This document shows positions 9,994-64,000 of a stretch of 64,000 nucleotides of DNA, piece after piece (the stretch's first letter is position 1; each line of letters starts with the position of its first letter). Below the pieces are notes generated by a model that was given only the letters and a program-made list of their open reading frames with translations, was not told the origin of the DNA and searched no databases. This DNA comes from Ectocarpus siliculosus (taxonomy: Eukaryota > Sar > Phaeophyceae > Ectocarpales > Ectocarpaceae): assembly GCA_000310025.1 (NCBI GenBank), contig FN649726.1, positions 407,527 to 471,526 of the forward strand. The letters run 5' to 3'. A program made the translations under genes and the position numbers.

Positions 9994-10872
9994 TGTCCCT
10001 CTCTAGGGATTTAGGGAGTGTTTACAACAGCAACACTCCTCCACCGCATGATCACGCGCGCGCGGGGGTATTCCAGACCCTAAAACAACTCTCAAAATAG
10101 CAGCATCAGTAATGACACGCGTCTCTTCAGTTTTCATACCAAGCAAACGTGGTACGCGCCAATATATCCAAAGAGCGCGCTTACACCTTGGAAAGAGAAA
10201 AAGACAAGCATATCTCACGGTCTTACATTCTAAGCGCGTACCCAGACAATCGAGGCTACTCGCATCGCAACCGAAACAACATGCCCCCCTCGACACCAAC
10301 ATCGACAAACTATCACGACTCTACCAAGTATTAAATCTCTACCAAGCAAACAATAACGAGCAAATGGCATGCACATCAATGATCAAGCGCCCGCGTCTCT
10401 CGCCGTCGTGCCGTCATACCACGCAACAAACACCACTACTGTGCAAGCGTAACACGGTACGTACGTAAACCACACCGCAACAAACTCGGCGGGAATGCCC
10501 TGGACATAAGAGATGGACACCGGGCGTGAAAAAGCAATGACCAACAACCGGCTAGGAGGCGCACTTCCCAAAATAGAAACAGTTATATCCGTTTTGTTCC
10601 AGCGCCGGTGGATCGGTTGAAAAACGCCCCCATTCTATCTAAAATACCCCCCGTTTCTTGTGTTGACAACCGTAACCGATATTAGACGCCTACTGGGTTT
10701 CCAAATGACCCGGGTACAACCGTTTTGCTCCCGGAAGGGCATGGACACCCACGCCACCTACAGCCAGCACGGCTGTAAAACTCCCTTTTCACAACAGACA
10801 CACAGACACACACAACACCGTTCGGCATTCAACACTATTAGTAATAAATACGAGCAGATTGATCACTCCTCT
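8410..10872. other. convergent intergenic region without a recognisable gene
   Basis: The region lies between two convergent 3' ends. The longest open frame (8815-9330, plus) has no motif, splice context or family resemblance, so I did not call it. A (CT)n tract is at 9961-9990. The rest shows no repeat structure I can name. Confidence 0.4.
9961..9990. repeat. (CT)15 microsatellite
   Basis: An uninterrupted CT dinucleotide tract lies in the gene-free region between the NDUFAF8-like and ankyrin genes. Confidence 0.95.
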
Positions 10873-13800: not shown

Positions 13801-14156
13801 GTATGGTGTGGGCCGGAACCGAAGAAGCGGCAAGGCCACAAGCGACTACCGTGCTAAAGCCGACTGCAGCTGCATTTCGTGCCAGCCTGCAGTTGGCGAA
13901 CGAACTCCATTCGACCGGTGAGTGCGAGTCATCGGCACACACTGGAAATAAATAGTTCGTGTCCTGAAGAACCCTCCCCCCCCGACCCCGAGCTCCTTCA
14001 TCTGAAAGACGTGCCAAATACGTGGGTGAGGCCCTCAAAGAAGCATGGGGCCATAGAGCCAAAGCAATGCCACATCTTGGTATAAGACGATGGCACAAAT
14101 ACAGCAAAGCTCCGCCGCATGTCAGCGCCATCGAAACTGTGGGTACCACCAACGAC

Positions 14157-14200
<44 letters not shown>

Positions 14201-40146: not shown

Positions 40147-43100
40147 AAACAAGCATCGATCGTGAGGGTGACAGTCCCAAGGCGGATCGGGAGGGTGGAC
40201 GTCGATCGAAGAATGACACCTCCGTGCCATTCGATCCCACGAAAGACTCCCTAGTGGTAGACGAAGATACAGGAAGCGGCGCAATATCCACGCGTTCTAG
40301 GCGCCACAGCAGTAGCGGCCGTCGACGTAGCAGTGGTGGTGGCAGCAGTGCAGGAGATGACACTCCCCGAAAGAAGAGCTCTGACGCCGCTGCTGACCGT
40401 CCCAGCTTAGAAGGTATCTTCAATGATAGCGAAGATGGCTCGAGTAGCGACATTTTCGATGTTGGCGCCGGGACAGCCTCCCCGTCGCCGCGGCGGGATA
40501 GTGGCGGTGGCCGGCGGCGCTCGTCAAATTCGGCCGATGTGCTGAACGCCCGACGGCCGTCGTCCGGGCCACAGAGCGGCGAGCGGTCACCCAGGCGAAA
40601 ATCCGCTGCTGGGGAACGGCGTCGATCGAGCAGCAAGCGGCCGCGAAGGGATCCATCGCCGCGGCGTGGGCGGCGGGCGGGGGGCGCATCCGGGCCTGCT
40701 TCCCTCAGTCAGACGCAGCACGCGGCGAGATCGCTCTCTGCAATGGGCCTGAGCGGATCCGGATCTACAAAACCCAGGACGAGAGCGGAGGTCAAAGAGC
40801 AGGGAAGGGTGCGAGAGTGGGCGAGTTTTTGCAGGCGCAAGACGTATCTTTCTCTGGAGGATCTTTCTCTGGAGGAGCGGCCACGGGTTGCAAGGAAGGG
40901 CGCTGTCACGCCGTTTTCTCTCCAACTTATGAGGGTGAACTTCTAAAGCAGTGGTATCATGTACACATAAAAACCAAAGTAAATAAGCAAACTTTCCCGT
41001 GGCTATGCCTAATAGGGGTTGCAGCTTGCGCGTTTTTCAGCAGTGCAGTCCAGTGTCGTCGAAGAACAAAGTGCCGAGTTGAGCTGCACGTGCAGTTAAG
41101 CAGGATGGCACCTCCCGACAAAGGCTTGGAACAACACTGCTTATGGTCCACTATACTCAGATATGCCTGTGGATAGAACGCTCTAACCGTTGAGGAAAAA
41201 GCACCAGCTGCAAACAGTGTGTCTCTCACACGTGTGGCGCTCGTTTCTAAGCCAAGCATCCCGCATGTACATAACATATCGTGGTCGTAATTTTTTGCGG
41301 CTGCCGCACACCGAACTGCAGGTGGAGGGCTGGCGAGTGCCTTCAGTCTTGGTCGACCGTGCTAGCGCCGCCGGCCATGGACTGCGGTTCTCTGTGAGCG
41401 TGAGCTTCTACCATGCTGGATCGAAACGGTTCTACGGGGACACGTTCATGGGAGAGCTCTTGGATGAGGAGGACGAAGAGCGCGTGGAAGTGGTGTCGGA
41501 AAGACGCCAAAGCACTTTTTCTTCGGGGATGAAAGGGAGATCTCGCAAGGTGAAGGATGCCACATAACCCGGTTAGGTAGCTCCACTGTTTTACTCTTGT
41601 GTGGAAACAGCTTATCAGCTGTAGACCAGCAGAACGTCACTGTACCTCGCATACAAGGGAGCTTTCTTCCAACAGCGGTGGGTTTAAAGTACCGTCTTGC
41701 TGCTCTCGAGTTTTCGACAGCGTTGACATGGAGGGCCTCTGCTCACCGCTGCTTTCTCCACCTCTGTCTCCGCATGCTGAAACTTCCAACGGTCAGCAAC
41801 GGGGCCGCTCGAAACCGAAAAACAACCGGAGCAAGAACAACAGCAGCAGTCGACGTCAGGGACGGGGCGGGGATACAAACGATGACGATTCGGACGACCG
41901 CGACGACGACGACGAGGATCAGGAGATGGAGGTTGCCACGAGGCACGAAGAGCTGCTGTACTGGTACACCGGCTTCGAAGACCCCAACTGCATTGCTGTC
42001 GTCGAGCTGGTGGCCACGGTTATGGACACGGAGAACGGTGTACAGGTTCGTCCGTTGATTAATGATATGCGTTCACTTGCATGGCATTCACGGCAGCTGA
42101 GCTATGGGGTAATGATGAACGCCCATTGCAGATTCAGTGCCTGTGAAGGACATGGAAACCTGAAGGGGTCAAGTAGTGGCTCAGTAGGTCTTGGCCAATC
42201 GCCAAAAGTTGGTGATTCTATCACGGCGCCAAGGATGCGGAGATATTGCGTTGCACGCAGCCTCTTTCACACACCGGGCTGTACCGCTTAGCAGCGCAAC
42301 TCACGATCTTTGTACATCCTCATCTACCGTGCGACCTGTGCGTGCTTTGCCGGATTGTCCAGGAGGGGCAGTACGGGTGCGGTTGGACGTTTATCCAGTT
42401 CTTTGGACCGAACGAGCCGGAGGCGGTACAGCATAGAGATGTCTACCACGGGTCCCCGCGAAACCTGCTGTTTTTCGAGCAGGTGTGCATCTCCTTCGCA
42501 AATATCGTCACATGTTTCTGGACCAAAAAGAAAATGTACGCGTCCAACATGACTTACACATGAACACCGCCTTGCTGTTTCTGCCAACGTGGCATGATTC
42601 AAAGGACTACACAACGCAGCAGCAGTCACTCCACGTTCTTTATTCCGCAAGGAGCACAGCCAACCTTCCTGTACCACGATGAATGAATGACAGGGCGACT
42701 GGGGAAGCGTTGGGGAGACCGTTATCCCCGGATGTTCCCTCTGGTTCACCCTGTCGGTGTGGGAAGGTCTGCTGAAGGCGAGACACCTGTTTCGCCCTGA
42801 CGAGATCGTGTCAGCGGTCGATGTCCTCCCAGGCACCCAGGCACGTGATATTTCAACTGTGATGCATAGCGAATTTCCGTTTCCTCAGAATACCGGCGAA
42901 AAACATGCGTACCATTGTTGTGCGTGCACACGATGGCGGGAAGATAGGCCGAGTCGACGCACCCTCACCACTTTCGACATATCTGATCACCAGTCGAGTC
43001 ACGTTCGCCTTACGTACGGATTATTCACTACACACAATCAGTGACGGTGTCGTACAATTCATCATGAACGTGCCTCACAAACTCCTTTCTTACACCGCAA

Positions 43101-46100
43101 CCATAAAGCAATTCGTAAATCCCAAGTCGCTACTGCAACTAGCTCAAAGGCCTCCTTTCCCTTCTTACCAGCAACGCTTTCATGATATCACCGTTCTATC
43201 TTCCTGTGCCTCCCCAGACTAAACAAATCACCGTGCCGGGCAAGCCCGCCAAGTTCGGCCCTTTCTTGGGCCTCAAGATCGACGAAGTTTCAAAGGCCCC
43301 GTCACGACGACGCCGAGGAGGTGCGGGCGCTTCTAGAGAGGGGATGGCCTGGAACATGTCTCCGGTCCGGCCTCGCCTCGCTGCATCCTTCGAGTTCCGC
43401 CTCTCGGCGCTACAGGTCATCATTCCAGGGCGGCAGGGCTACGAGCGAGACTTGCTCAAGCACCTTGGAGAAGACGTCCCAGACCAGGTGTGTGCGTGGC
43501 ACAACAACACCGTAGGCATTTGTGCAATTTTGGTTAACTCTTTTTACATCTGTCGCAACCTGGCAGATGAAGAAGCCACGGTAACACATCCAGGTTCCTT
43601 GTGGTCTGTCGGCTTTCTCTTGGCTGTGTCGCTTGTCCATGAGATGCCCCCATGGGCGAGCGACGTCTGAGACCCACTTTCTCAAAATGATCAACACCAA
43701 CACCAACACCACCACCACCACCACCACCAACACCACCAACAACAACAGCAAACATAATTTCAGCAGCGGGAGTAGATGCGTGGACCCTCCCAGTCCGACA
43801 GAAACACGCCCGGGCTTGAACCCCCCATCCCACCCCCCCATTGGGGGGCACTTGGACATAATTCAGTGCGTTATTGAAGCAAATGGCGCAACGGATTCGA
43901 TTCTGGAGGTTATATATGAGTTTACTTTCTTAACTTGGGGCTCCTAAACATCCAACGAGGCCGACAACTTTGTTCCTCAATAATGCCGGTGGTCTGTTCC
44001 TCGTGAAAAGTAGGAATTGGACGAGAGCGTCTTGGGATAGGAATCAAGCGTGGGTGTTGGGGGCGGGATTCAAGCCTTTCGATAGTGAGTGCAACCGTCA
44101 CGGACGACATGAAGCTATTCACCAGCTAAGTTGTTGTTTTCCACGATGTGGTGAATAGGTGATGATGATGGTTCCATGTCTACCGAGTCCGACGGCAAGA
44201 GGTTAGAAGAGGAGGGGGTTCCGAGAAGGCGAATCTCTTTTTCAACCAAAATGTGCATCGCGGTAGGGTATTGTACGGGAAGATACGCCCGGATAGGCCG
44301 AACGCGCGTTACACACCGGACGACAAATGACATTCAGAAGCCAAAACGATTGAGGGTTGAAAAATGCCTTTTGGGAGAGCCAACAACTTGAATACTTTAA
44401 ATGCCGACCCTTTGCGTGCCCGAGCGCCTCTCTGACACCTAACCTCATTAACCAACACGAAACGAGAAAACACAAATATTACCGCGCCCACGTCGTTGCC
44501 CGCGTTCGCAGGAAATTGTGAAGACCACGACGCACCAGCACACCCTGGGATTCTCCACCACACAGCGAGAAGTTGTGACGCCTTCGTCAGGAGGAGGGGG
44601 GAGCGGGAGGGGCGAAGGGAGGGGCGGGGGTGGCGGGAATAGGGCCAAGATAGTGGATAGGCGGGCGAAAATCGGGTTCCACAACGGGCACACCCTGGTT
44701 CTGCCGCATGAGGTCAGTTTAGCTTCTTGTTACTTGGTTCCTAAACGGGACATGGAGTGATGGAGGTGAAACCCCACTGGAAAGCAAACGAGATGTTTCT
44801 CCGTCGTTTTTCAAAGGGTCCACGGTGTGCTTTAGGAACAAGAGTACGACAGTTTCCCTCGTCTCTTGGCTCCTGCCGACATCATCCCTTTTCGAACAAA
44901 GCTGATGACGGTTGAAGTATTCGGGCGAGAGGTGTCATCACGCCGGCGCAAGGAGGGGCCATCTGGTTGGCGTCATGGGCCCGGCAACCCAACATGCCCG
45001 GTTTCGCGCCACTATACTGACGCCATGCCTGAGTGTAGCCAGACGTCTGAATAGTACGCGTGGACTAGACATGGGACTCTCGCTACCTCTACCTCCTTTC
45101 GCTACCTGTTGTCGCAGTATTCACAAGAACGCATCGCGGGAGAATCACTCCCAACCTATTCAATTTGTATTAACCGGATACAGTCGTTGTGTGCTGTGTC
45201 CGAACAGTGGGTGGAGAGTCACCTGGAGGAGACGAACGAGACTGACGTGCTCATGCTACCGGAGGAGGTGTCCTCTCTAAGCGTCGATGGCTATGTGCCC
45301 CACCCGCTCTTCGCGCTCGTCGTCCTCATCGAGTACACCATCAGGTACAAGAAGACTTACCCTAGACCGTGGCATTTCCTACACACGAACTCTTCCCTTA
45401 CATCGCACACCGTGCGTGTTTTCTTGCCCCTAAAAGAGCTGACGGAAAATGCTCTTTGCCGTTTTCGCTGTCATTGAGGATACACCCCGTTACACAAGTA
45501 CAACACCCAACCGCCCCGAAACGCACTAGTTTGATCGAAACATTGGTTTTGTCGACGATCCATGGGTGGATGGATACCGGCGGCTTCTATCGACCTTGTC
45601 CGTGGGCGTGTTTGACGGCCATCCGAACAGGGTATTTCAGCACCTCAACTCAGCATTGTCGCCTTGAGCTACTACGCATTCGTGCACTTTCCCCAACAAC
45701 ATCGGAGAATGTCGAGGGTTGCAGGCTAGACTCGTTTTGCAGCGTGCATCTTGTCGATTAGCTCCTGTGCGGTCCGTGGGCTACCTATCCCACGAGGTGC
45801 GAACGCTAGTGCCATCTACAGTGATACCTGATTCTCGCCGCCGTCCCGACCGCGGCGCAATTTGTTTTGCCTGTGCCCTCCAACCCCCCCTTCAACGCAG
45901 GACGAGGCCCAAGGCCGCGGGTGGCGGGCGAGGCGGAGGGGGTGGGGGTAGGGCCAGGAAGGGGGACCCCCTGGCGCAGGCACAGGCAGAGCTCAGTCAT
46001 GCCGCCTTGCCCGTGGTCGTGGGAATGCAGGTGCAGAGAGGCTGCGCTGCTTTGGCCCGACGTCTCTTGTGGGTATACTCGGCTTCAACTGTCTGCATCT

Positions 46101-49100
46101 AACAACAAGTGGTCACTCTGTGAGGTGCTTATTGTTGTAAGGAAGCATATGCGTGGTCGATTCACTCCTTCTCAAGCGTATCTTCCTTTGCCTGCTTTCA
46201 TCCTACAAGGTCTTCCTCCCGCACGATGGCAAGAGGCTTCGGCTCCGGAACACCCCTCGTGGCGAAGAGAATATGGACATCAGTCTGAGGCTCGCTGCCG
46301 ACAAGAAAGTCCGCCTAGTCACCACGGAGCTGGTGAGCTCATGTTGAGCCATGCGGGGCATCTTGGAAGAACGAAGCACGAGCTAGCCGCTACCGAAAAA
46401 TCAAGCAGGGGTGTGCCTACGACCAGACCGAATATACCAAGCCCATCGAAAACATGATTGCCATTAAAATGACATGGGACCTGGAACGAGATTCTCGCGT
46501 TATTCTCCATCTACCAGTACAGGCTGCAGCAAGGAAAGAATGCCGCGGTAACGCCCGCCCCTTCAATAGGGGCTGATGGCGATTATCAAATCGGGCAATG
46601 TGTCAAACGACCCACTGTGCTTTCTCTTCTGCTGCAGGTTTACACCAACAAGAACCACCTCCTGGATGAGGCGCACGGCGGCGCCAGCGACGGCGAGGAC
46701 GGGCGAGGTCCGAAGATGGTCTATTTCGACCTCAAGGTAGGACGTGGAACAGACCGTCCAAGTGATCGCCACCTTGTTGTTGCGGACATACATGGGTCGT
46801 CTTCACTGTTTGATCACTGACCGGTCGAATCGCATTTTCTTGCCTCAACTTGACCTTGAAAATCACAGGCACGCACAGCAGGGGGGAGGCGGGACAATAG
46901 CACAAAAAAATAGAGTTCCTGTGTTACCTTCCACCCGTGTGTGACCCATCTGATACGTCAACATACTGCCACGACGTGTATTCTGGCGCTAGAACAGATG
47001 GGAAGGAATCAAACAAACAATCATCAACAGGTTTCCCAGCCAAGCTGTTCCCTCGGTGCCCATGGTTCCGTCGTCACCGCAGTCCTCTCTCTGAACTACA
47101 CAATACAAGCACATGGCGTACGCGAAGAGAAAAAAAATTCGAGATCCTCTAGACTATTGGTTTCGTCGCCTCGCCGCACGTGCGGCCTTGGTAGGGGAAA
47201 TTTCGGCATTGCTTCGTGGCACAGCTGGCTACTTTGATATTAGTCCGGCTCTTTCCGAACAAGCAATGAGCATTTTATGAAAAACTGCTCCTCTCGAGTG
47301 AATCATGGAAAGTCCAAACAGCCCCGACAAGCGGTACTTGCTGTACTTGGCCGGTTGGGACCCGAAACATTACGACTCGATTCAGATTCGCAGTAGTTGA
47401 TCTCGCCCAGACCAACAGTCGCCTGGCATTTCCGATCGTGCACCTGGCTTTTGACCGGACGTAGGCGTTTGACTCCCATGGGAAGAGACTACAAGACGAA
47501 ACGCCCGCCAGCGCTGATGAAAGCCCGCTCGAAGCTGACTGGGGACCACCGAAGCAAGAAGCGGTAGAGAGCAGGTAAGCGTGTGTGCGGGCGTTCAAAG
47601 GCCATCGATATGATGCCGACGAAACTCCATCGTCTCTCTCGGTTTGTTTTCTTCGTGGAGGAACTTGATAAATGATGCATCCCCCGTTGCGGATCGCCCG
47701 GGCGGGTGCCACGGTGATGTTATAGCAACCGTCGCGTCCAAAATCGTTTGACTCCTGCCACCCGACAACCTCTTCACATGATTCTTCACTGGCCACAGTT
47801 GTAGGACGAGAAATGGAAAAATGCCCAACACTGACCGGGTCAAACGAGTACACTTGGGGGATTATGTGTGGCGTCCTAAAGAAGAAAGAACCACTGGCGG
47901 TGGTGCCCCGTACATACAGTATATTTAAGCAAAGAACACTTGGAATGACGTTGGATGTAGCTCGGTCAGTCTTTTAGTTGTCACTCCTTTCTGATAAATC
48001 GTCGCGCAGACTGACATCTAAGGCTTGACAATTGGTGTGGAGTTAGCCCCCCCCCCCTGCACCGATTTTCAAAGGCGACTTATATACCTGCAGCGAAGGG
48101 GGTTTCAATGCCAAACGTTACGTGTGAGGAGATTTCTCGAGGAGATGGTCCCAACACCACCCTTATCGGCGCGAACACGTACCTTTCCTGCCGACATTCT
48201 ATGTAGTATCTCTATCGGATGGCTTGAGCGGTTGTTGAAGCATAGCAAAGGCTTATCAGTAGCAAAAACACAGGGTCCTTCCAACTTCTGCGGACAGGAG
48301 CATCTACTTACTTCACGGACACACGTACTCAAACCCCACCGCCCGTTTTGCTCTCCCTTCAATGAATCCTGTATCCATGCTTTTCGATGTGGTGTACGGC
48401 CATTCAACCCCTTCTGATGACCACTTTTAATGGGGAATTCCCAATACGATAAACGTCCACGTTTCCAGCAACGGGACTGCTTCGTCGAGCGTAGAAAGCA
48501 CCAGCAGCAGCTCTGAATCGTCCACGGAAAGCTCTTCCTCTTCCTCTTCCTCTTCCTCGAGTCAGAGCGAAACCCCGGCGCCAAAGACGCGGAAACCGAC
48601 ACCTCCTACAAGACGGAAGAAGCCGGCTAAGGTATGGCATGGTAGGGATGGAATACAATGCCTCGAGTCTTATCCAACCGCAGGCCGTCGCGTGTTTTGC
48701 CACAAAATCTTTAAGCTTGCGATGATCTCCAAGGGAATTCCACGACAAGGTGACAGCCCGCTCACACGAATCAAGTCCTCTTACATCCTCACAAACAGAA
48801 AATGTCACATATGGATCCATTGTTCGAATTTTAAAGTCGCCGTGTCCGTACTCTACGGTTGTTCTTGGCTTGCCGCTGAAGTGGAAGAGTTCCTTCACGC
48901 CCGATTACTCCAGGGCGGATCGCCGAAACTTCGTTCTTTCTCTAGCCGGGGTCAATCGTTTCGGCGCCATCATCCCATTTCCTCAGTTGCAAGGGCCTAC
49001 CCCGTCGTTGGAACACCGGTTGCGGAAATGCGATCGATTGACTCCTGTGCAAACCATCCCATCGATATGCTGAACGAGCGAAATTCACGGCGCTCATCTC

Positions 49101-52100
49101 ACTCTCGCTCTTGCCGAACAAGTCATTCCCGCTTGAAACGCTTCGAAACTCTGACGTAACAACAACCATAATGCAACACTACAGGTCAAGCGCAAGCGGC
49201 CCCCTCAGCAAGATTCCAGCAGCGACGACTCCGACAGCGTAACCTCTTCCCTCGTGAAAGGAGACAGTGACTCTAGCTTTCTGCGACGGCGCCCCAAGAA
49301 GAGGAACGCGCACGTTCAGGCCACGGATAAGGGCTGGGACGCCTGGAGAAACAGCATCAAGGTACAGTTTTCGTTGTTGTTGATGATGATGCCGGTTACT
49401 TGTAAATGGTCGGCAAGAAGTTCAACACGACCATCGTCTTTAGAGGAGAGGCATCCCAATGCTTTCTTTTCAGAATAGACGTGTACGGCCAGTGACGATT
49501 ATCCCTGGACGTTGCCGGCCTTGGCTACCACACTGTTGCGCCGGCGATGTATGCTGACCGTACGCCTCTTTTCTATGACGAATTGCGTTCTCCACTTGCC
49601 CGCACACCCAAACTTCCTCGTTCGTTCACGAGCAGGTGCCCCGACGCAGCGAGTCATTGATGGGTCAAACGCTGCAGGCGCCACTACACGTCGAAGCATC
49701 CGCTCAGACGGCCGTGATACCGGACCACGAGCCCGGATTGGGTTTCAGCGGACCGCCGGCAGTGACGGTGGGGGGGTTCGCGCCGCTCCCGCAAGGGCTT
49801 TCGAGAGCAAGTCGAACCAGGTTCGCAATAGTCTTTTCGCTAGCGAGGAACGGTTTTTTTACAAGCCTGTGTCGTGGTTGGGTTCCAAGCCTCCACGTTG
49901 ATCGTTCGTCTCTTCACACACAATGGATGGGTTGGCGGCAAACCTACTTTGCGAGTCTGGCGTCGTAAATTCTTCTGTACCTTTTTTCGACCGGCATACT
50001 TTTTCTCCGTGCCTTTGGCAGGTTGAGTCGGCACGGCTTCACCGATGTCATGAAGGACACGGTAGACTCCTTTGCGCAAACGTCGGGCTTCGACCCCCTT
50101 CGCCGCCAGAATATTCCGATCGACCTCGACCTAGAAGTCACCGACCCCCTGGCCAAGCACGAGGTCACTCTTCAGTTCGCCGCTTTCAGAGGACTTTCAA
50201 GCGGAGGCAGCGGCGGTGACCGCACCGACAACAGCAGCCACCGAAGTGTCGGGGGTGGCGCGGATGTCTGGCACGAGGGAGGCGGGGATATGGTGTCGTC
50301 AATGCCGACGTCGCTATACTTCACGTATCAGTTCTACACGTGCCTTCCGACGAGGACGGAGCGGATGTTGCTAAGGCCGGATGGGCCCAAGGATAGACTA
50401 TACCAGGTACGAATATATATGTTATACAACAAGGGTTTGCTTCACTCGTTGCGGCCCAATTGTTGGTGTTGCTTGGGACAAAATCATCGACCTATTGATG
50501 CTTGATTGTTACGACACCCCTTTCATTCCATTGCCCACTGTTTTCACTCACTTCATATCATGACTACCGCTTCAAACTCAAGTGTGGTCTTCGTTGGGGG
50601 CTATTGTGCCCAAGAATAATGTAGAGCTTCTTCAGACGTTTATTCAATGTCACCGAATACGATGCTTAACCAAGTCGTGCGCGCGATTCATTCGCTGCGG
50701 TTTGTGCTCGGGGCACGCTTCAGGCGGAAGGCGGGGGGGTGTCTCGGCTGAGCATCCTGGTGAGGGACGGTCGCTACGGGAGGGACGAACCTTCTCTGGG
50801 GCTGCGGCACAGCATCGATACAACCATGATGCAGGTGGGACAATGATCAGTTGGGTCAGGTGACACCTATGGCGACGTAAACACCACTAACGTTCTGTCT
50901 CGCTTAGGCAGCCTACATCCACTCTGTGTGTCATGCCATGGCGGTAGCAGGAACCTTTGTACGGTGGGACGTCCCATATCTAGACGAGGATGAGATCAGG
51001 GCGTGGGTTGCATCGTTGGATTGACGTTTTCGGGGGCAAATGACACACTCTTGCGTGTGTCAACGGATTCGAGTTTTTCCGTGGAGGTCGTTATTTCCAT
51101 GGTTTTTTTAGATGCCCCACTTCCACAATTGAAATAGGCCTTGGAGTTTGCAAAAGCGTCTCTGCACACCCCGCGACGAGTGGACTATCCGCTAAGCCTC
51201 TGGCGAGTGCTGGGCACTGGGCAACTTCGTGCTCTACTGGTTAAGTACACAAGATCGACAAGACGTGTAGAATTCGTTTACTCATTGTCTTCCAAGGCTC
51301 AACCGATCTCCCTTCTCCAGGTAACCGTTGCCCACGCCATATTTCGGTACGTGTTTTTGTACGCTTTTCCGTGCGACGTGGCTGGCAGCCTTTTGAGGCC
51401 CACGCCTTCGCGACCTACATGGCCGGCAGCACCTTGTTCGTGGACGTTTGGGATGCGGACGCACTCATGCACATAGGGACTCTTGCGATGCCTCTCCGGG
51501 AACTCATGCGGCAGCAGAAAGGGGTAGTGAAGACGGCAATGGTGAGCAAAATAATCAGGGAACGTTTCAGCAATGAGCGTCGTGAATATTAGATCTGTTG
51601 CAACATCGATGATCGGCATGGAACATAGGGAGAGTTCGCTCTCACTAAAGTACATCCGATGTCCTTGGAGTCCTGTTTGTCAAGTTTCCTAGGACATTTT
51701 CACAAGGTTGAATGGTACTCGTCGGACTCCTTCACTAGTGTCGACATCAGAGTAGGCGCTTCACCCCTTCTCCTCGGAACTCCTCACTTGATAAGCACTA
51801 TTCAGGGTCAAAATGAAGCACAGTATTGTGTGAAATAGTATATTTGGGGGAGGGTATCGACGTCGGTTCATTTTTCTTCCCTCAATAGGGCTTCGTGTCT
51901 CCAGCATCATTAGTCTATGTTCTTGTTTGCCACCCCTTCTTATTGAGAGGCTTTGGTCCTCATCATCGAGTGAAATGAACAGATTGCATTCATCCGGTGT
52001 CGATCCGGCATGAGACGACATTATTGAGTGAAATTCCAGAGTCCACCGAATGAACAGAGTCCACCGATCAGAAGTTGATCTGCCACAGAACTATAGAATT

Positions 52101-54035
52101 CACTTTTGTCACATGATGTAGTGTCCACAACCAACCTCCGTTTTCACGACGTCTAACCGTACGCCTCACATGAGTAACAGCTGACTACCCATGTTCGAAT
52201 GCTTGGCTTCGTATTTCATACCAGATAGAGTGAATACTCACAAGTTTCTGGCAAGTGTTTACACGGTTCCATTCGAACACAGGAGTGAAATTACCATTTT
52301 GTTCTTGTTTCTTTTGTTTCATAAGGACGGATTGTGAATATTTCACTTACAGCTGAATCCACCCGGGATTTGTTCGGGACCTCTTATTCCGTTTTACTCC
52401 AACCACCACACACTATTTCAGGAGCCACAACCCAGCCCCAAACAAAGTGTGAGCAATCCAGATTTACCGAATGAATATTGGTACACACACCGTCCACCGT
52501 TCCTGTTGGTCTGTATATAATTCCCAGGAGTACGAGATAGTGGCTAGTACCGCCGCCGCGGACAATAGCGGGAGCGGGAGTGGCGTGGCTGTGAAGCACG
52601 GGGCTGTGGGGAAAGGTCCTGTTGTAGGGCTGATCCAGGTGAGTCAGTGTAGGCCGTCGACAGCTTATGGAACACATTCCTCGACGATTCCCTGAGAACG
52701 TGAGAGCCCTAAACTTGACTTGAAAGAACAAAAGAGTGAAAATCTGTTGATATTTCGCGTGGACGGATGTGTTGTATTGCACGCAGTAGAGTGAGACATA
52801 TTGCCTGAGAATTGCCTTTTCCCTGTTTGTTTGTCGATGGCAACGCATTGTGATTTGTGAGAGTCCCATACATCATTTTAGAAATCACGTGTAGTTGATC
52901 CTGTGCGGCACTCTTGATCGCTGGTTCGCCGAGCTATCTCTCATAGAGCTGCCATGCAGCTGCTTGAGCACCAATTTCATGCCTCCGTACATTCTCCAGT
53001 TTTCCTTTGGGCGCCACTTCATGCCGAGATTTATCCCAAATTAGTGGTGAAGGTACACCTCGTTCATGAGGGCGGAGTCTCAGGTGTCGTTAATGTTAAC
53101 ATGTTTCGTCATGGCTGTGAACTACAGTACAGCCTGCCTCACTCGAAACAGTCTCGGGAATCTGAGGTTTTTTCTTGTGAAACTGGCCGGGCGGAAGGCA
53201 CACAGGCACGAGCGTGTTCGTAACAACAGCCACAGGCTGCACACTGCACGGTCCAGTTTGGAGGTTCCTTCGAGACCTCTGACCTCTTGATCAAGAAATT
53301 GAAACACGGCTGTGCATGTCTGCCCTGGCGAAAATATCACTGCTGCTAGCAGATCCTCGCCAGCAACTATGGCGAGCCTGGCAAGGGGGGCGATCTCCCC
53401 GCTTCGGGCGCTGTTCCTGGGACCGTGCGCCCCATGCTCTCGGGCTCAAACATTAGCGGTGATTGGCGGATGGCATCGGCAACTGTGGGAGGCGCGCAAG
53501 GGTCGGGACATCGTGGAACACGGCCTCGGCATAAGGTCTTGTTTGACAACAAGTAGTCACGATATTCACAAATGTAATGTCGGTTTTCAAGGAACTCCTA
53601 CTTGTTGATCGCTCATAACTCGCTATATTCTGCATCATGTCGACACGCGTGTACATACTGTAGATAAATATCCAACATTGGGGTTGACGAGTCGACCGAA
53701 TCGATGTCTTCAGCTCAAAACTGATACAGAAAGCATTTACGATTACCAAGGTACAGCTTTGGCCCGATTCAAAACCGAGTAGACCGAACCTGTCTTAGGC
53801 AGACATTTCGCTATGTTTCAGATGTTACCTTAACGCGTGACGAATCTGGTGTCCTATCTGCTACCCTTGAATCATTGTCAAGGTACGAGCACGTCCCCTC
53901 GCGGACACGAATCCGGAGATTTTGAAGTACATGGAGGCTGTTTCTGGCCCTAGTTCCGGCGGCGGAATGGCCATTTCAAGCCTGGGGCGGAGAGGAAGGG
54001 GCGACCCTGACGCCGACAGCATGGGATATGATGAG
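40147..54035 (+). CDS. NPHP4: nephrocystin-4-like protein (N-terminal and middle part)
   Basis: Twenty-two phase-consistent exons: 40147-40934, 41322-41549, 41611-42045, 42363-42482, 42694-42858, 43218-43487, 44512-44712, 44836-44931, 45118-45344, 45901-46030, 46210-46332, 46638-46736, 47465-47574, 48469-48631, 49185-49361, 49636-49820, 50022-50406, 50724-50834, 51389-51541, 52528-52638, 53353-53535 and 53883-54035, about 1,537 aa. Family landmarks in order: IAVVELVATV, YHGSPRNLLF, HLFRPDEIVSAVDVLPG, RRAKIGFHNG, HPLFALVVLIEYT, VTLQFAAF, SLYFTYQFY, LFVDVWDADALMHIG and RPLADTNPEI. NPHP4 is a scaffold of the ciliary transition zone binding NPHP1 and RPGRIP1L. A Ser/Arg-rich extension of about 240 residues precedes the usual start. 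The true start exon is missing. No stop follows exon 22; the frame runs in phase into the EF-hand exons listed next. Less certain are the 42858 donor and 51389 acceptor. Confidence 0.84.
43692..43748. repeat. (AAC/ACC)n triplet tract in intron
   Basis: Imperfect CCA and CAA triplets lie in the NPHP4-like intron between exons ending at 43487 and starting at 44512. Confidence 0.85.
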
Positions 54036-54414
54036 GTGGGTGGGTTCTGTGTCATCCAGATTTCCGCCCTAAAGCAGCATTACCAGAAGAGGGAGTGTGG
54101 TTTTCTTCTGGGATCCCTGGGGGACAGACAACACGGAGGTTCATGGAGTACAGAAGCGTCGTACAGGCGCTGGAGTGAAACCAAACACAGCCAATAACCT
54201 GCTCTAAGTCGACGCAGGCAGCACAAGCCTCCCAGTTTTAAGGGCAGAGTGATGTTCATTTTACGATGGACATTGACGTAGCAGTTGAGTTGATTTGATA
54301 TCACGTGGAATACTGTGTACAAGAAGACGAACGCCCTTACAAAGCGTGCGCCCCGGTGGGTCGTATATTTTCCTGTTTGGTCGGACACTCTTGGGGAATC
54401 TCCACCCGCTAAAG

Positions 54415-57400
54415 CTAATGCTGTTGGTGAGGCGATTCCGAGGATCGGCGAAAGGCAGGGTTTGGTACTCAGGCCCACTGCTCAAACTCCTCGACGTGCC
54501 CGGGCGCAAGCAACTGGAGCAGCGGTTGGTGCGAGCTGTAGAACGTTCGGAAAGGTGAGCGCTAGAAGTGAACCTGGATCCTAGGTGTCGAGTCTGCAGT
54601 GCCTCTGGTTTGAATACCAACCCAAAACATGGTCTGGTGAACGTTGTATCAAGACTACTTTCCATGGAGCTCGGCCGCTTGGGAAAATGGTGACCCACGC
54701 ACCAAGTCAAAATGTCTTCTCGTCAGCAACGGCAAGAGAGCCCTCACGAATGCTCCTACATGTGGTGGTATGGACGCATACAACCTTACTTTGGAGTAGA
54801 ATACGTGGTAGCGGACTCGTTCAGTCGTACCACGTCGTCCTGGCCACATGGTAGTCATCGGGGCGCACACCATCACAGGAGTTGAGACGATGGTTGGTCG
54901 GTGACGCTCGGGTGAGGAAATGCGCTCGAGCTCTAGTCGGGTGCGCTAGGGCCGAGCACTGTAACGGATTCGAAGTTCAGGCATGTTTATTGATTGGTAT
55001 GATGGGCCAGGTATTCTTCTGGCCGGAACTTCTCTTTGCGTCGCTGTCGATGTATACGATGGGCAGAGATGAGTCTCCCGCGCTTGTGCCGGTTCGTTTG
55101 CATTGATCCATTAGGTCTGGTCTTGGCTTAGCGGAGGCTTTCCGAGAAATGGATCAGAACAGGACGGGCGAAATCAGGTACGGCAGAACGAGGATGATCG
55201 GTCGCTCGTTTGAGTTTTGACGAGATATTTCGATGAACGAGCGGCTGAGGTGATATTTTACCGCAGTCTCTCTACTGGTTACTTTTCAGTGCAGGATTGG
55301 CTTGTGCTGACCGTGTCACTTCCGTTGCGGGTTTATGTCGTGTCCACTGATGGCAACAACCCTAGTCCATGCATACGCGGAATCGGAACAAACACAGGTG
55401 TAACGGACAACCTCCCAATTGAAGTGGCGGCAAGGACACGGTATTCCAACAATGAACCCGTCCTGGCTGTTGCATCGCGTGCTCGATGAAAAGGGATCAA
55501 GGATGTTTAGGGTATCTTTCGTTAGTTTCCCATTCACGATCAAGATGTGAAACGAACACGGAGTGAGTGTCGCGGAACCGTGGACTGAATCGTACATCCG
55601 GCCCAATCGTTTGGCACCCCGAAAAACCTGCAGCACACACGAGCTGGAAGAAGTGTTCTGGGGGATGCTTTCGCCCGGAGAGATGGCGAGAGAGCACCTG
55701 AGAGCTTTGGTGAAGGGCATGGATCCGGGCGCAACGGGGAAGATTGGGCTTAGAGAATTGGTGACCTTCGTCAGCGCGAGGCAGGGCGGCGGTGGGGTAG
55801 GAAAAGCAGCGAAAGCCGCCGAGACGGGCCTGAAAAGGTGCGCTTGCAACGTTTTCAACGACAATCACGCCAAGGTTTGGGTCAGATGGAAAAGCTGTTG
55901 CTTTCTTAGGGCCGGATTTTTCATTTTCAAAGTCACAAAAAGATTTAACAGGCAACCAACTTTTACTCCATGACAATTGAGAGAGAATAATGGTGGTAGC
56001 ATACGACGCCCGATGACGACATTCGAGCATCGGAATTGCAAGCGCTCGGGGCAATCTTACCGTTTTTATGTTTCGACCAGTTCTCGTTCGGAGAACTGCA
56101 CAGCATTACCGGCGACCAGTCCTACTGTCTCAGGCCTAGGTCCCTTGCGAAAGGACCACCCCTTAAACAATTTTGGAATGCAGTTTTGAAAGAGAACAAG
56201 GGGGGCGCGTTGACCGTCTTTCCCCTTCTTCCTGCAAAAAATTCCGATTCCGTGTTGCGTCGTTGGCAGAGCTCTTGCTAGGGCGGAGCTCGGGGGCAGC
56301 TCGGTGGAGGAGGCATTTTCCCTTTTGGATAAGAAGGGGACGGATTCCGTCAGCCATGCCGACTTTTGGGAGGTGACTCGGGGTCTAGCAACGCAAACGG
56401 TTTAGTATATACGAAATACGATAGAGTACGGTAAGGGTTTGCTGGTCGTGCAGCCATAAAAATTATAGCCGAGTGCGCCAGCAGAGGTCGACAGCCGAAC
56501 CAGATTCCACGGCACTTTGATGCTTGCTGGCACGCCGCTCTACTGTGTTCCGCCGATAGATGTCAACCCTCGTAGGACCCTGGGTACGAGTAATTTCTAC
56601 GTTTGGTACCTTACTCGTGCAGTGAAACCGTGCCGGGCCTAGAATATCACCGGATCGTAAAACCCGTACAACACTCAACACTATCACATGTGAATCGGTC
56701 ACTGGCTCTTACTCCGACTCGACATAGGCCGTTCGCGACTTGGGAGGCGTGCCGGGGTTGGTGAAGTCGGACCTCGACCCCTTACTCCGGCGTCTTGACA
56801 CGGCCGGCGACGGAAGGGTGTCACTACCTGCTCTCATGCGATGGGCCGAGAGGAAGGTCTTGTCGTCCTCTGCTGTCGAAAACGCGGTAAGCACGTTCGA
56901 AAGCGTGCAAGGAAATACCAATAATATGTTTCTTTGCCCGAAGTCTCGAAGACCTGCGGTCATGAAAAGCAACTTGAAAATAGGTGATGGTCGGGGAAAG
57001 TAGCCCCGACATCTGACACGGAAGGATGGAAGAGGCAAGGTCGCTTAAGTGGCACGACTAAACTGTGCCTGAGGTAGTTATTGGGAATTCTGCTTGTGTC
57101 AAATGCCGAAGAAGACCCGCTAAGTCGCCCGAAACGCGCACGCGGAGCACATAGAACCATCGTGGAAGAAATCGATATCGATCGGGTTTTCATTCTGCCG
57201 GTCATTCCATCAAAAATTGAACTACTTCCCCACACGACATGTCGCAATCTTTGTTGACCGCGGGAACTACCGAAAGTCTGACGTTTGAGGCTAATGATGA
57301 GTGCTTGCCCTGGACATCGCAGGCCCGAAAGAAGATTTTCAAGGCAGAAGCAGTAGCGTTGAGAGACGGACAGAAAGGCGCGGTCCCGATTGAGGAGGCT

Positions 57401-60400
57401 TTCGCGGCAGCCGGAGACCTCTGCGACGCCATCAAGGTAAGCGGCGGCATGAGTAACAAAGAGGCAACAAGAAGAGTGAAACTGACTGACGAGCGTTGAT
57501 CGTTCCGAATCCCCTTCTTCTTGGCTTTTTGGAGACGAAAATAAAAATCAAACACAGCGTTCACTCTTGCTACGCGTTGCTTGAACCTTTTTTGCAGCAC
57601 TACCGACGTAAGTACGTGGTGGTTGAGCACTCTGCTGCCGAAGTACTGTACGCATCGATCTGCGGAAACGCCCAGATGTGTTGATACATGGGAGTATATT
57701 CTTGTTAGACCTTTTTCACCATGTCCCTCCGAATCACTTGGCTCAACTTCGAACCAGGTCCTACGGAACGTGCACCTCACGCCAAGAGAGACGGCGGCCT
57801 TGAGCAGGCGGTGCGAAAAAGCCGGGGGAAGAGGAATCGACGTTCCAGCAGCTCTACTGTTCTTTGGTCGCGACGTTCATTTGCAGTCCAAACCATTAGA
57901 GGACGTTATTGAGCCCAGCGGTAGCGTTGGGAGTCAGGAGAACAGGGAGAGCCAGGGGGAGACATTGCGAGAGAATCTCCAGCAAGCGGAAGACGAGGAG
58001 GAGAGGCTAGCCTCGGAGGTCGAGGTTCGTACGTACGGCAAACACGTAGAATATTTCCATGGTACGAGTCGTTCGTTAGAAACATCTGGCAGCAGATACA
58101 CAAGAGGAGAACGCTGGTATTTGGAGATGTCGTGAGGACTGAACGCGTGCCAAGAGTGAACTAACAACACGTGACGGCGTTGAGAGTACGATGAGTACGG
58201 GTACCTCCCCGTTCCGCAACAGGGACACCTTATTGCCGTGGCTGTACACAACGAAAACGTTCTAACGAAATTTTGGATCTTGTGAACGGGACGAAAAAGC
58301 GTGTTCGCCAGAGTAGCGGTCATAGAAAAAAGCGTCTCCGCTTGCGTGATGAAATGTGCAGCACCGGCAACATCAGCGTTGTGATCATTGCTTCATTTCC
58401 AAGAAGGCCACTTTGTACGTCAGTTTCGCGCGCTGTTGTACGTCAGTTTCGCGCGCTGATTCAGAAGAATCAGTGCGGAGTGAAGAGCACTGGTGAGAGT
58501 CTCCGGTTGATGGAAGCAGGCCTCACTGACCCCAAGTTGAACAGACTACGAAACGCCCGGCGGTAGGGCGTCGACTGCACTTTGTCGACGACCTTGGTGT
58601 GCTGAGTGATGCGCTGAATTGCAGCTTCATGATTGTGCCATGTAAAACACCTACTGGACCTCAACCTCCCTCGCATACCGCTCAAATCTCTTTATCAATT
58701 CCTAAATTGTGAACTGGTCCAGCGAACGCTGAAAAACATTGTGATGAAAGCGGAGAGCATGGGTACGTCACTCGCTGAAGTGTTCGGGGTTTTCGACAAA
58801 GATGGGTCAGGGTTCATCACCGCTGCCGAGCTGGAGGAAGGCCTTCGAGAACTACGGGTGTTCGATGCCGTTCCCAGGGATCAGGTGCATTGGTCTTTCA
58901 TCAAAGTATGGAACATGGGTATTTCAGCTGACAATAATCTTACCAAGCAGTTGGCAAAGACGTACCACAGCTGCATGGTCTTCTTCCAGGCGACACCACT
59001 ATTTAATATTGTACTAACAACGAACCCCACAATTCAAGAACGGTGTGCACGTTAGCGTTCGAGGCTTCCCCGGCCGCCTGCCATTTCCAGGACGAACGCC
59101 TGCTGTAGCGAAAAATATTTTTGGTCCCGAGGGGCATGCCTCCCGTTCACCGGTGGTGTAGCTGCTCGGCCAGTTGAATATCATTCTATTGGAATTTCTG
59201 CCGCTCGGTTCTACCGTTGCACTTCTCGGTGCACCACAGGGACACTCTTGCGAGCAGAGAGGAGTTGGTGCAAGGGTTCTCGCGTTCCCTGCAGTTCTTG
59301 TCGGTGCCCCGTTACAAGAGGAAGACGAATCACGAAACCCACAGCACGCCATTGGTTATCCCTCGTGACGAGTCGCACCTACTCTCGGTCGGCGGAACGC
59401 CCCCCCCGCCAAATGTATAGGTAATTTCCTTGGCCAGGAAGCTCAAAAGCTCTTCCTCCTTCTCCGGCCGAGACAATGGCGTTGACAGCGAACTGGTTGT
59501 TAGCGCGGAGGAGTTCGTGCGCTTTGTCGGCGGCGAGTACGAGGTAACCGAGGCCGCCCAAGGCCGACTTCGCAGAGTCCTGCAGCTCGCGGAGGAGAGG
59601 GAGGGGGTCACCCTGGAGGCTGCGTTCGGGGCCCTTGACAAGGTGTGGATTGTCTTTCGAACTTCAAGTGCTACGTCTCCGCCGATACCAACTCAGTAGA
59701 GTTGGCGCTCTTTCCGCGTTGCGTCTACCACTCACGTTTTCTCCAATATCTCAACCAACAACGCCTTTCAGCTTAGAGCAACCGGCGTGATAGGAAGCAA
59801 TCTCATTAACACCGGTTTTTTCAGGAAACTTCCCCAACGTCTAGAGTCAGGTTCTACTGAAAATCCTTGCGAACTACGAGAATTATTATTTCTGTTATGT
59901 AACACCAAGACGTTTTCACTTGCTGTCTGTCTACTGTAACTGTTGCAAGCCTGCATGCGAAAGTGTGGTACTTTCAAGCTCAGAAAGATGCAACCAAGCA
60001 TAACAAGGCACGCAGTTCGTCTGCTTACCATACCCCCCCACCCCCTCTTTTCCTCCTCGTCCATCTGGATGGAATACCTGGCGACCTCCTCAAATCAACG
60101 ACAGAACGGTACAGGAAGCATTTCCACAGCGGATCTAGAAGAAGGTCTTCGGCAGTTGAAGGTGTTCGACGGAATGTCCAAGGAACAGGCGTCCCTGGCA
60201 ACCAGGCGTTTCGACCAGAACGGGGACGGTGTCATTAGCCTCTCCGACTTCTTGGCCTTCGCCGGAAAGCCGTACTCTGCTAACGATCGGCCTCTGGAGG
60301 CCAAGCTTAGGAGAGTTCTGCTCAAGGCTGAATCGGTACGACGAGTCTTCGGTTCCAGGCAACGGTCTTGGTTGGCTGCATTGTTTGGCGAACGTGCCAA

Positions 60401-63400
60401 TACATGACGGAGCTCTTTTCGAGAAGCTTTTCTTGGGGTATGATTGTGATATCAACGGCGTTAGGCTATTGTTGCTTCAAGCGGCCATGCCGCTAGGTCG
60501 AACATTTCTCAACAGTAAACGCCACGGTAACCGCGCATTTTTCACAACGCTGGCTTCAACTGTGCGTGATGTTCGGTTTCGTGAAGATGGGCGTATCTAT
60601 GGAGGAGGCGTTCAAGCACTTCGACAAGGATGGCTGCGGCTCGATCACCGCACAGGGCTTCTCGACGGGTCTCCAGGAGATGGGCGTTTTCAAGGAATTT
60701 TCGAAGGAGGAGATTGTTGAGGTAAGACGCGAGCCTCTTGCTACTCCGTGGGACAGAGGTGCCTCGCCGCTAGCGCTGCCGGTACCCAACCGCCCCCTGT
60801 TCACTACCTCGGTGAAACACAACCACAGGTAGTTTCCAGCTTCGGCGGCGACGAGGACGGCGCCGTCAGTCTCCCAAAGTTCCTCCGATTCCTGGGAAAG
60901 GAGTACGGAAGAGGTGCCGATGGGAAGAGTGGAGGAGCATGGCCGGGAGCGGGGGGGGGGCGATCTTTGGCTGGGAGGCTACGATTGATCCTCAAGAAGG
61001 TTCGATAAAGAAGCGCCGCTTGTTTCCATTGCACTCTTGAACTGCTAGCCGGAGGATGTCGCGGTGGGAACTGCTGTCAGGAGCGAGTTCTGAATATAAT
61101 TAGGACAGGACCTTGGTGCACCAAGCCCAGGCGTCGGTACGACTTTTTTTTTGCGATCTGATGATGGAAACGGCCGCAATCCTAAACCTTCGAGGCCCCT
61201 CAATTCAGAAACTTCAAGCGGCTAGCGCCCATGCGCATTCGGAGCCCTTGTCCAAAGAACACATTATTACCCGTGGTACGAGCTGAGCAGCTGCGCTCCT
61301 GTTAGTGTTGCGAGCAGTTTCATGCACATCAGTATCCCTCCATTATTCATCGGGTGGCGTTGATTCTGGGTTTACCAAGCTTCGTGCTCAAGACATGACG
61401 TTGGAATGGACCCTCAACCTATCGCGATTACTGCCGAGCAAAGCGGTCGAACAGAACTTCGATGCTCCCAACCTGTACCTTCGGGTAGACCAGTTTCGTC
61501 TCAGAAACTCCGGTCGTTCGCCGTCCTCGTATTTCTACCACAGGCAGTCTACAGTAGCCCGTCTCATCCGTAGATCCATCTCTGACCCAGCGCATTCCCC
61601 TCTTTTCGGGAGAAGAGGCAGCTTGCTTTATGAAATCCCGAACGCCTTGGGTTAGAAAGTCTAGGTATGGACTCCACAGACCATTGTCCAGGAAGCATAG
61701 CACACAAGGCCACACAGATGGCAGCATGGCTGACTGAGGGTTGAACTACTGTGGTGAAAACCGGGACGCTTACCCTTTGTTTCTCGGCGGTTGTGGCTAC
61801 GCGACTTGTCTCAGGCTCACGAGCTCGGAACTCCTCTGTCGGCGTCTTTCGAAGGGTTTGGAGCGGACGGGAGCGGCCGCCTGTCCGTTCAGCAGCTTCA
61901 CGCGGCGCTGAAAGATATCGGACAGTTTCGTTGGACGACTGTGAGTTCTTTCAATCTTGCTGTCGTCGGAGTGTAGAAAGATGGAGATAGATAGATAGAT
62001 AGATGATAGAGAGAGAGAGTAGTGCCAAGTGGGAGGGCGGTTGTCAGCGATTCCAGTCTCATTCTCTACATATGATCCCTTTTCATGTAGGAGTCAAGAT
62101 TTGGGGATACTACGTCGATGGCGAGTAACTAATGGTAGCTGGAACCCCCAACACAAATATATTCCTTGATCAGCATTCAAGTTTGAGCCACAATTAGCAG
62201 ACGAGGACTCAAGTCGAACATGTACAGGGCGGGAAGGCCACAACACAGAGCCCCAAGGGTCGAAGCCTCGGCGTATGAAGACATCCAAATGAAAACCGCT
62301 TTGAACGTAGCCCCAAAGCTCGAGGGGACGGCAGTCCTACCGCAACCTCGCTTGTCGACGCTAGTCTTCAGATTGACCGGGGAGTTTGCTCATTCCTCTC
62401 CTCCCTTTCCGCTCTTTCTCGATTTGATAGCTGGGGGAGGTAAAAGGTTTCATTCGCCTATTGCAGGAAGACGAAGCCGAGGTCGACGCCGCTCGTCGTA
62501 CCTCCTCTTCTGACAGTGAAGTGTTTCTGACCCTGCCGGCTTTAGAAGCGTTTGTCGAGGGTGGCGACGCCTTCCTCGCCCGGAAAGAAAGAGCCGCGCT
62601 GGCCCGGCGACAATCTCAGGAGGTGTTGTTGGCTAAGGAACACGCCGGTGCCGAAGCTGCTGCCGCAAGCCCCACTCAAGCCAGGTCGGGCGCGGCAAGC
62701 GCTTCTCGTACCCGAGCCAACTCGTGGTTCGCAGGAGAAAATACGACTGCCGCCGACGCCGATGGGAGCAGCGGCGCCTACGGCAAGGGAGCCGAGAACG
62801 AGCGGGAGTTGCTGGAACGCTTGAGGGTGGTTCTTGCTAGAGCTGCGGGGAAGGCGAGTCGAGACGGCGAGGACAGTGACGGCTGCGGAGGTGCGAGCCT
62901 GGACGATGACGGGGTGCGGGGGCATCTTGATTCGTTCGACGTCGACGGCGACGGGGTTCTGCGGCCGGAGGAGCTCGTGGCCTCTCTTCGTAGCCTCGGC
63001 GCTAGAGGCGGAGAGTTTCATGGACGGAAGGGGGTCAACGCCATCCTGTCCCTATTCCGCGACGGAACTGAGAGGCCCGCTGCAGGCGCACAAATCGGGG
63101 CGAGTGTCGTGAAGATAGCTTGGTGGTTTGCGGAACAGACCAGTTCAAAGACAGCATCGGCAGGTGCTGCTGCGGAGCATAGCGGTGGTGAGTCCCCCTC
63201 CAATGTCCGGTCGGGCATGCTGAGGGGCGAGCCCGGCGGCGACCGTGTGAGGGCGGAGACAAGCCGAGTCGGGGCCGGAGAAGCGCTCCGACGAGCCGTG
63301 GGGATCGCAGAAGCGAAGGGAACGACAATGGAAAGAACGTTCGCTCGCCTGGACGATGACGGGGACGGTTTCATAACGCTAAGGCAGCTGCTTCGGGGAT

Positions 63401-63886
63401 TGGATCAGCTGGGCGTATTTAAGATGGTGACGCTTTTAGGATAGTGTTTTACTGGCAAAGACGTTTGGGGGGGGCACTTGCTATTTTCTGTTTGTATGAC
63501 AAAGACTGGTGATGCATGGTCACCATTCATAGGTGTCTAGCGATCCAAGTCGAGGCACTGCGTAATAGCAAACGTGCCACGTCCTGTGGGTCATCAGCCA
63601 CTGACCAACACGAAGAGACCAGCCAGAGTGCACTACCTCATAGCCTGCACGTGTCTGTATTTCCTCACCATGGCACACTCTGACCTGTACTGTCAAATTC
63701 TTCAGGCTTCTCGCGACGATGTTCTGGACGCGCTGGACGAACTAGATGCCGAGCGCCAGTCTAGTCCGCCTTCAAGTGGCCGGAAGGGAGGAGAATCGAA
63801 GCACGGCGGAGGGGACAGCGGCACTGGCGGGGTGGACTTGGTCGCATTTATCAGGCTCATGCGCCACCGGCCGCGTCAAGCCCTAG
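54415..63886 (+). CDS. multi-EF-hand region, probably the C-terminal part of the NPHP4-like protein (continues past window)
   Basis: Fifteen phase-consistent exons: 54415-54554, 55115-55177, 55634-55837, 56270-56372, 56728-56886, 57323-57436, 57758-58024, 58723-58884, 59421-59642, 60105-60335, 60587-60721, 60829-60999, 61815-61940, 62467-63426 and 63706-63886, at least 1,079 aa with no stop reached. Canonical calcium loops include DQNRTGEISTHE, DPGATGKIGLRE, DKDGSGFITAAE, DKNGTGSISTAD, DQNGDGVISLSD and DVDGDGVLRPEE; others have lost position 12 or 1 (DKDGCGSITAQG, DDDGDGFITLRQ, GADGSGRLSVQQ). A repeated module is visible: a helix like LRRVLLKAES-MG, an EF hand ending GL..LGVF, a short linker, then a second EF hand ending F..F.G. 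The first exon, phase 0, follows the NPHP4-like exon 22 and reads like a degenerate second EF hand, so one fused protein is favoured. A separate gene starting at ATG 54418 is the alternative. Confidence 0.85.
58413..58458. repeat. perfect 23-bp tandem duplication in intron
   Basis: Two adjacent identical 23-bp units (58413-58435 and 58436-58458), each containing GTACGTCAG and GCGCGC, lie in the intron before the EF-hand exon at 58723. Complete identity suggests a recent event. Confidence 0.95.
61985..62019. repeat. (GATA)n/(GA)n microsatellite
   Basis: A GATA tetranucleotide tract runs into GA dinucleotides, in the intron following the EF-hand exon ending at 61940. Confidence 0.9.
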
Positions 63887-64000
63887 GTTCGTTCAATGAG
63901 CGAAGAGATCAGTCCGGAACCCTGCTCTTGATTCTAGCTACCCTTAGAAGCATTCCCGCACTCGCGAAAGGAAATGAGACAGCAGACCCTCTCCTTGCGA

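Follow-up and report, generated by a model that had tools for sequence, protein, structure and literature searches.

The question raised by this locus of the brown alga Ectocarpus siliculosus is whether exons resembling nephrocystin-4 (NPHP4) and a long run of EF-hand exons lying directly behind them on the same strand belong to one gene or to two. The window, by which the whole stretch of DNA analysed is meant, comprises 64,000 nucleotides (G000:C1:407527-471526) of a draft genome of 189 Mb in 492 contigs, and the contig holding it is 3.7 Mb long. Positions beyond 64000 are numbered onwards from the window (position in the adjoining stretch L001 plus 64000), and the sequence covered extends 20 kb downstream. 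A self-trained gene model was used, the training set of which consisted partly of exons hand-picked from the same region. Because of this regional training, and because the model ran everything between 34028 and 77151 together into one gene of 67 merged exons, its joins alone prove nothing. The human NPHP4 query (1,426 aa, which we take to be the length of the human protein) was a sequence entered by hand and not a database record, and the identity of the exons as NPHP4 rests on this query.

Many exon ends were set by hand, guided by the repeat pattern and by human NPHP4. In the array these are 59421, 60105 and the removal of a 14-base exon; upstream of it, the exons 53353-53535 and 53883-54035; downstream, most of those that follow 66202, among them 68338-68608 and 68858-69001, the last two of which were not used as placed by the model's own paths. 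The part of the locus that precedes the array is made up as follows.

40147..41321, plus strand: probable N-terminal low-complexity part, gene model only (model exons 40147-40808 and 40860-40934)
41322..54035, plus strand: N-terminal half of NPHP4, 19 modelled exons, 1,024 aa (20 exons and 1,079 aa with 42694-42858)
42694..42858, plus strand: NPHP4 exon absent from the first model (tblastn, human residues 178-216 at 42718-42834, E 0.083)
53883..54035, plus strand: final NPHP4 exon, directly preceding the array, VRARPLADTNPEI...MGYDE

No homology was found for 40147..41321. The N-terminal half from 41322 onwards was matched by phmmer to the human query with 82.3 bits when 19 exons were used and with 100.3 bits (E 3.3e-28) when 42694-42858 was added; this exon has a good acceptor and a weak donor, so its end is uncertain. 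The similarity is patchy, being concentrated at human residues ~92-217 (domain E 8.9e-7) and 660-889 (1.6e-18), with an insignificant piece at 270-298. It extends to human residue 889, through the exon 53883-54035 with the motif RPLADTNPEI, and the half closes in phase 0 at the donor GAG/GTGGGT. The preliminary description had counted 22 exons from 40147 to 54035, all matching NPHP4 in order. Their number and the phase 0 end of the last one are reproduced by the gene model, while a match of all 22 was not borne out: similarity is detectable over the two human segments just named, and the exon at ~42694-42858 was missing from the first model. Searching the DNA with the human protein (tblastn) gave further matches in this half.

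Human 128-163 at 42378, plus strand: E 4.7
Human 270-312 at 44614, plus strand: E 0.083
Human 601-685 at 50023, plus strand: E 0.013
Human 710-794 at 51296-51577, plus strand: E 1.4e-8

The array begins at the next exon, which enters in phase 0 at 54415 in the gene model, as had been described.

54415..64815 (window part 54415..64000), plus strand: EF-hand array, 17 exons, 3,515 nt, ~1,171 aa

The chain of 15 EF-hand exons from 54415 to 63886 noted earlier stands, with all phases closing in the hand-corrected model, and it is continued by two more exons to 64815. It consists of about ten divergent units, each with a lead helix and an EF-hand pair (seven units were aligned). The Pfam comparison, proposed for the joined protein, was carried out on its parts. 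It gave EF-hand_7 with 1.4e-45 and EF-hand_6 with 5.4e-45 in the array as first modelled (1,151 aa); in the N-terminal half and in the C-terminal half considered below it gave no family, and the human NPHP4 query was also matchless, so that for these halves the test has no power. The calcium-loop pattern was found nine times in the refined array, two of the matches overlapping (eight if this pair is counted once), against a mean of 0.77 and a maximum of 5 in 500 shuffles. On the other side, just 8 of the ~19 loops expected fit it.

In a comparison with the PDB, 891 residues of this 1,151-aa version matched 208 sequences, and the best 60 of these were calmodulins or calmodulin fusions. A genome search with its residues 1-740 (cut-off 0.01) returned 14 places of the array itself and one calmodulin-like place (E 0.003). 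No match between the array and the human NPHP4 query was found by phmmer. AlphaFold models of two single array exons had mean pLDDT values of 45 and 50, too poor for use. Judging by the profiles and loops, the EF hands in the array are real, and the array presumably binds calcium. Like calmodulin and other EF-hand proteins, it has EF-hand pairs with canonical loops; it differs from them in that its roughly ten units each have a lead helix of their own and probably lie inside a scaffold protein.

The array is followed, outside the window, by nine further exons (64994-69001; L001:994-5001), which keep the strand and the reading frame. They encode 603 aa, comprising the NPHP4 linker and the C-terminal half, that run without internal stop to a final TGA, so that the gene extends 5 kb past the window.

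64994-65233, 65550-65639, 66080-66202, 66439-66769 and 67072-67136, plus strand: exons 1-5 of the C-terminal half
67410-67731, 67888-68114, 68338-68608 and 68858-69001, plus strand: exons 6-9 of the C-terminal half

This stretch was matched to the human NPHP4 query by phmmer with 198.9 bits (E 5.5e-58 at Z=100,000), whereas the best of 900 shuffled controls reached 2.8 bits. It aligns up to residue 1420 or 1421 of the 1426 in the human protein, the C-terminal domains of which we take to be Ig/MSP-like. A probable GC-AG intron lies near the end of the gene, at 68609 (L001:4609), with the donor GAG/GCAAGT. The tblastn matches to the human protein in this part were the following.

Human 958-981 at 65551, plus strand: E 4.7
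Human 990-1023 at 66087, plus strand: E 0.003
Human 1034-1080 at 66473, plus strand: E 0.24
Human 1129-1149 at 67084, plus strand: E 4.7
Human 1213-1283 at 67888, plus strand: E 1.7e-9
Human 1294-1380 at 68354, plus strand: E 4.1e-15
Human 1380-1421 at 68855, plus strand: E 0.064

Over the whole locus the tblastn matches are collinear, and nine further ones (E 0.71-8) are scattered over both strands. The preliminary description had implied that the array forms the C-terminus and replaces the Ig/MSP-like half. This is not supported, and a C-terminal array is rejected, the C-terminal half of NPHP4 (64994-69001) coming after the array with a stop of its own. No second copy of this half was found in the genome: a search with E up to 10 gave ten matches, namely its own nine places and a weak one (E 0.37). 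Relatives of its last 138 residues were absent from viral_contigs and genome_contigs, both of which are non-eukaryotic collections. No chain matching residues 643-1426 of the human NPHP4 query was found in the PDB, and the algal C-terminal half had two chance matches only in it (best E 0.38).

Thus, the array has one NPHP4 half on either side, both on the same strand and in their usual order, and the question of one gene or two depends on two introns.

54036..54414, plus strand: junction intron 1, 379 bp, with a weak acceptor (CTAAAG) and entry phase 0
64816-64993 (L001:816-993), plus strand: junction intron 2, 178 bp, the third shortest of the model introns

In the model there are 44 introns with a median of 367 bp (range 107-1038), and all phases close over the 45 exons that begin at 41322, with no internal stop, also after the addition of 42694-42858. 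The predicted product is 2,799 aa long from 41322 to the stop, or 55 aa longer with the added exon and with the N-terminal exons before 41322 uncounted, in agreement with the earlier estimate of at least 2,600 residues. The best donor, 54036, is in phase 0 and scores 5.3, the next one scoring 2.7 in phase 1; the best acceptors after the array, 64994 (4.7) and 65550 (5.6), are both in phase 2. With 3,515 nt the array equals 2 modulo 3, and therefore it supplies the frame shift that the phase-2 exons after it need. If 54035 is joined to 64994, 65550 or 66080 without the array, a stop is reached after 61, 2 and 23 residues, respectively.

These frame relations weigh against the view that NPHP4 is ordinary and that one of its introns harbours a separate same-strand gene, the EF array, since the best splice sites would put such an NPHP4 out of frame. 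The array would also fill 95% of that intron and leave just 379 + 178 bp for a promoter and a terminator, and same-strand nested genes are rare. On the other hand, the first array exon reads L-M, and the ATG at 54418 together with an in-frame TGA (64817-64819), which the donor of junction intron 2 overlaps and which could be the end of a separate EF gene, delimits a complete open reading frame. The last unit of the array, moreover, has no second EF hand in the hand-corrected model, which also speaks for a separate gene. The entry acceptor at 54415 scores 2.3, and out-of-phase acceptors at 54459 (4.3) and 54473 (3.0) are stronger; an alternative in-frame join is possible from donor 54040 to acceptor 54473, both in phase 1. 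The longest stretch of sequence shared by the two junction introns is 9 bases.

The path scores of the gene model depend on the costs charged for starts and stops. With these costs included, the fused gene scored 353.2, 288.8 and 240.2 under three intron costs, and NPHP4 without the array plus a separate EF gene 344.7, 280.4 and 234.3, the fused version leading by 8.5, 8.4 and 5.9 nats. Without them, the separate version came out ahead, with 361.2, 299.5 and 253.6 against 353.2, 288.8 and 240.2 for the fused one, a point in favour of the nested gene; the separate path then fragments the region into many small genes. As the order is reversed once start and stop costs are dropped, the path score is modest evidence for the fusion at best. 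Taking all this together, we consider a nested gene unlikely.

According to another explanation, which overlaps with that of a single gene, the locus is spliced alternatively into forms with and without the array, the array-free form arising by use of a weak donor or of an additional short exon. The model does offer such a weaker skip path, via donor 54095 or the small exon 54128-54174, and that donor scores -0.8 compared with 5.3 for 54036; alternative splicing of this kind appears quite improbable. Finally, the juxtaposition of NPHP4 and EF hands could be an artefact of assembly, the genome being a draft in 492 contigs. The stretch lies inside the 3.7 Mb contig, no N occurs between 54035 and 69001, and the phases close over both junctions, which makes an artefact extremely improbable. 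It may be concluded that the locus most likely contains a single gene, in agreement with the preliminary description: an NPHP4 that probably carries the EF-hand array inside its linker, with the C2-like N-terminal half before it and the Ig/MSP-like C-terminal half behind it.

Several observations concern the surroundings of this gene. Upstream on the same strand (34028-38658), there are coding-like exons with much coiled-coil and low-complexity sequence, and the last open frame of this stretch ends at 38655, with a stop next. A peptide within the modelled gene at 10513-22750 of the window resembles what we take to be a DRG-type GTPase. Downstream, the open exon 72793-72971 (L001, continued numbering) contains 'GIHEIFHLVLG', presumably a metallopeptidase zinc site, and a run of 4,083 N occupies 77976-82058 (L002, continued numbering). 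The EsV_1_7_cys family is very large in this genome, with at least 150 matches (150 scored of 880 candidates); a large family of this kind is a hallmark of brown algae.

The NPHP4 proteins of animals, Chlamydomonas and Paramecium are similar to that of the alga in the collinearity of their N- and C-terminal halves, and the difference lies in the EF hands, ~1,171 residues by which the algal linker is probably extended ahead of the Ig/MSP-like part. In the human query, about 20 residues separate the two motifs that flank the array in the alga. NPHP4 is described as the most prevalent NPHP protein, absent from Excavata (PMC4092220), as a component of the transition zone in Chlamydomonas (PMC6070942), and as located outside the doublets at the transition zone (PMC8535419); the word EF-hand is absent from the main text of PMC4092220. 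Among titles and abstract openings, a set containing few subscription papers, none was found that reports EF hands in an NPHP4, and in passages of two of the three papers that mention NPHP4, nephrocystin-4 and EF-hand together these terms were unrelated.

A partner of NPHP4 provides a parallel. RPGRIP1L is a nephrocystin-4 interactor, as named in the title of a reference of PMC8623546. As reported in PMC7093003, depletion of NPHP4, CEP290 or RPGRIP1L in Paramecium blocks deciliation by Ca2+/ethanol, apparently because calcium influx fails; RPGRIP1L of Paramecium carries additional EF hands at its C-terminus, and a version lacking them still rescues deciliation. It is likewise a transition-zone protein of the same module with extra EF hands, and it differs in being another subunit and in having them at the C-terminus and not internally, as algal NPHP4 probably does. 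The dispensability of its EF hands for deciliation, as reported there, argues against a necessary calcium-sensing role.

In Ectocarpus, RPGRIP1L was found by means of the Pfam family C2-C2_1 at C11:2858542-2859356, minus strand (3.9e-41 on joined exons). The minus strand of G000:C11:2841737-2870293 (L004-L006) carries RPGRIP1L and then EF-hand units, many of them degenerate. An EF-hand_7 match lies downstream of RPGRIP1L on the same strand (C11:2846560-2846706), and modelled exons between C11:2846831 and 2843884 match EF-hand with 5.1e-13. Of the four downstream pieces compared with Pfam, a single one passes the EF cut-offs; another has a weak match (EF-hand_6, E 0.017), and the remaining two show none. 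The number of EF-hand_7 matches expected within 12.8 kb downstream is ~0.0014 based on the 40 other matches and 0.007 based on all 206 candidates. In the model, one gene runs to 2851301 and the next begins at 2851290, with EF-like units on either side; it is possible that RPGRIP1L and the downstream units form one gene. RPGR1_C gave no match, and neither did its control. Within 100 kb of the CC2D2A and B9 exons, no EF-hand_7 match was found (150 of 206 candidates scored).

A profile of eight units of the NPHP4 array matched the RPGRIP1L region with 1.1e-9 at best, the best shuffle having E 2.4. Five of the ten match lines in this region begin at profile position 7 or earlier, in the lead helix, and two of these five have a domain E below 0.01. 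At other EF loci (20 of 41 EF-hand_7 hits), 19 matched the profile in 24 lines, none of which begins before position 17, although introns may hide the helix there. Since a calmodulin-like locus outscores RPGRIP1L on the profile (45.8 against 33.1 bits), a repeat unit common to the NPHP4 array and the RPGRIP1L region is only suggested.

One mRNA, as well as the location and function of the fused NPHP4, are what we infer for this locus, and a calcium-responsive transition-zone scaffold is, in our opinion, the best reading of a protein with a presumed function of this kind. The two NPHP4 halves would anchor it at the flagellar base, as NPHP4 is anchored elsewhere, and the array between them would bind calcium when calcium enters the flagellum. 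The calcium-bound array might alter the spacing or the partner binding of both halves, and the resulting change could tune the gate or help to prime flagellar shedding. That the EF hands are essential for shedding is disfavoured, because Paramecium RPGRIP1L without EF hands still rescues deciliation; as candidates for their role, regulation of gating, regulation of the beat and buffering of calcium at the base of the flagellum stand on an equal footing. A more far-reaching proposal, which we regard as tentative and rather doubtful, is that the whole NPHP4-RPGRIP1L module of brown algae acts as a calcium sensor, with related arrays, internal in NPHP4 and terminal in RPGRIP1L, coupling calcium entry to gating or shedding.

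An NPHP4 with a built-in EF-hand array would offer a concrete protein for testing how calcium acts on the transition-zone machinery for the shedding or gating of cilia. EF hands at NPHP4 and after RPGRIP1L suggest that the ciliary gate may sense calcium and that control of this module by calcium may be found repeatedly among protists.
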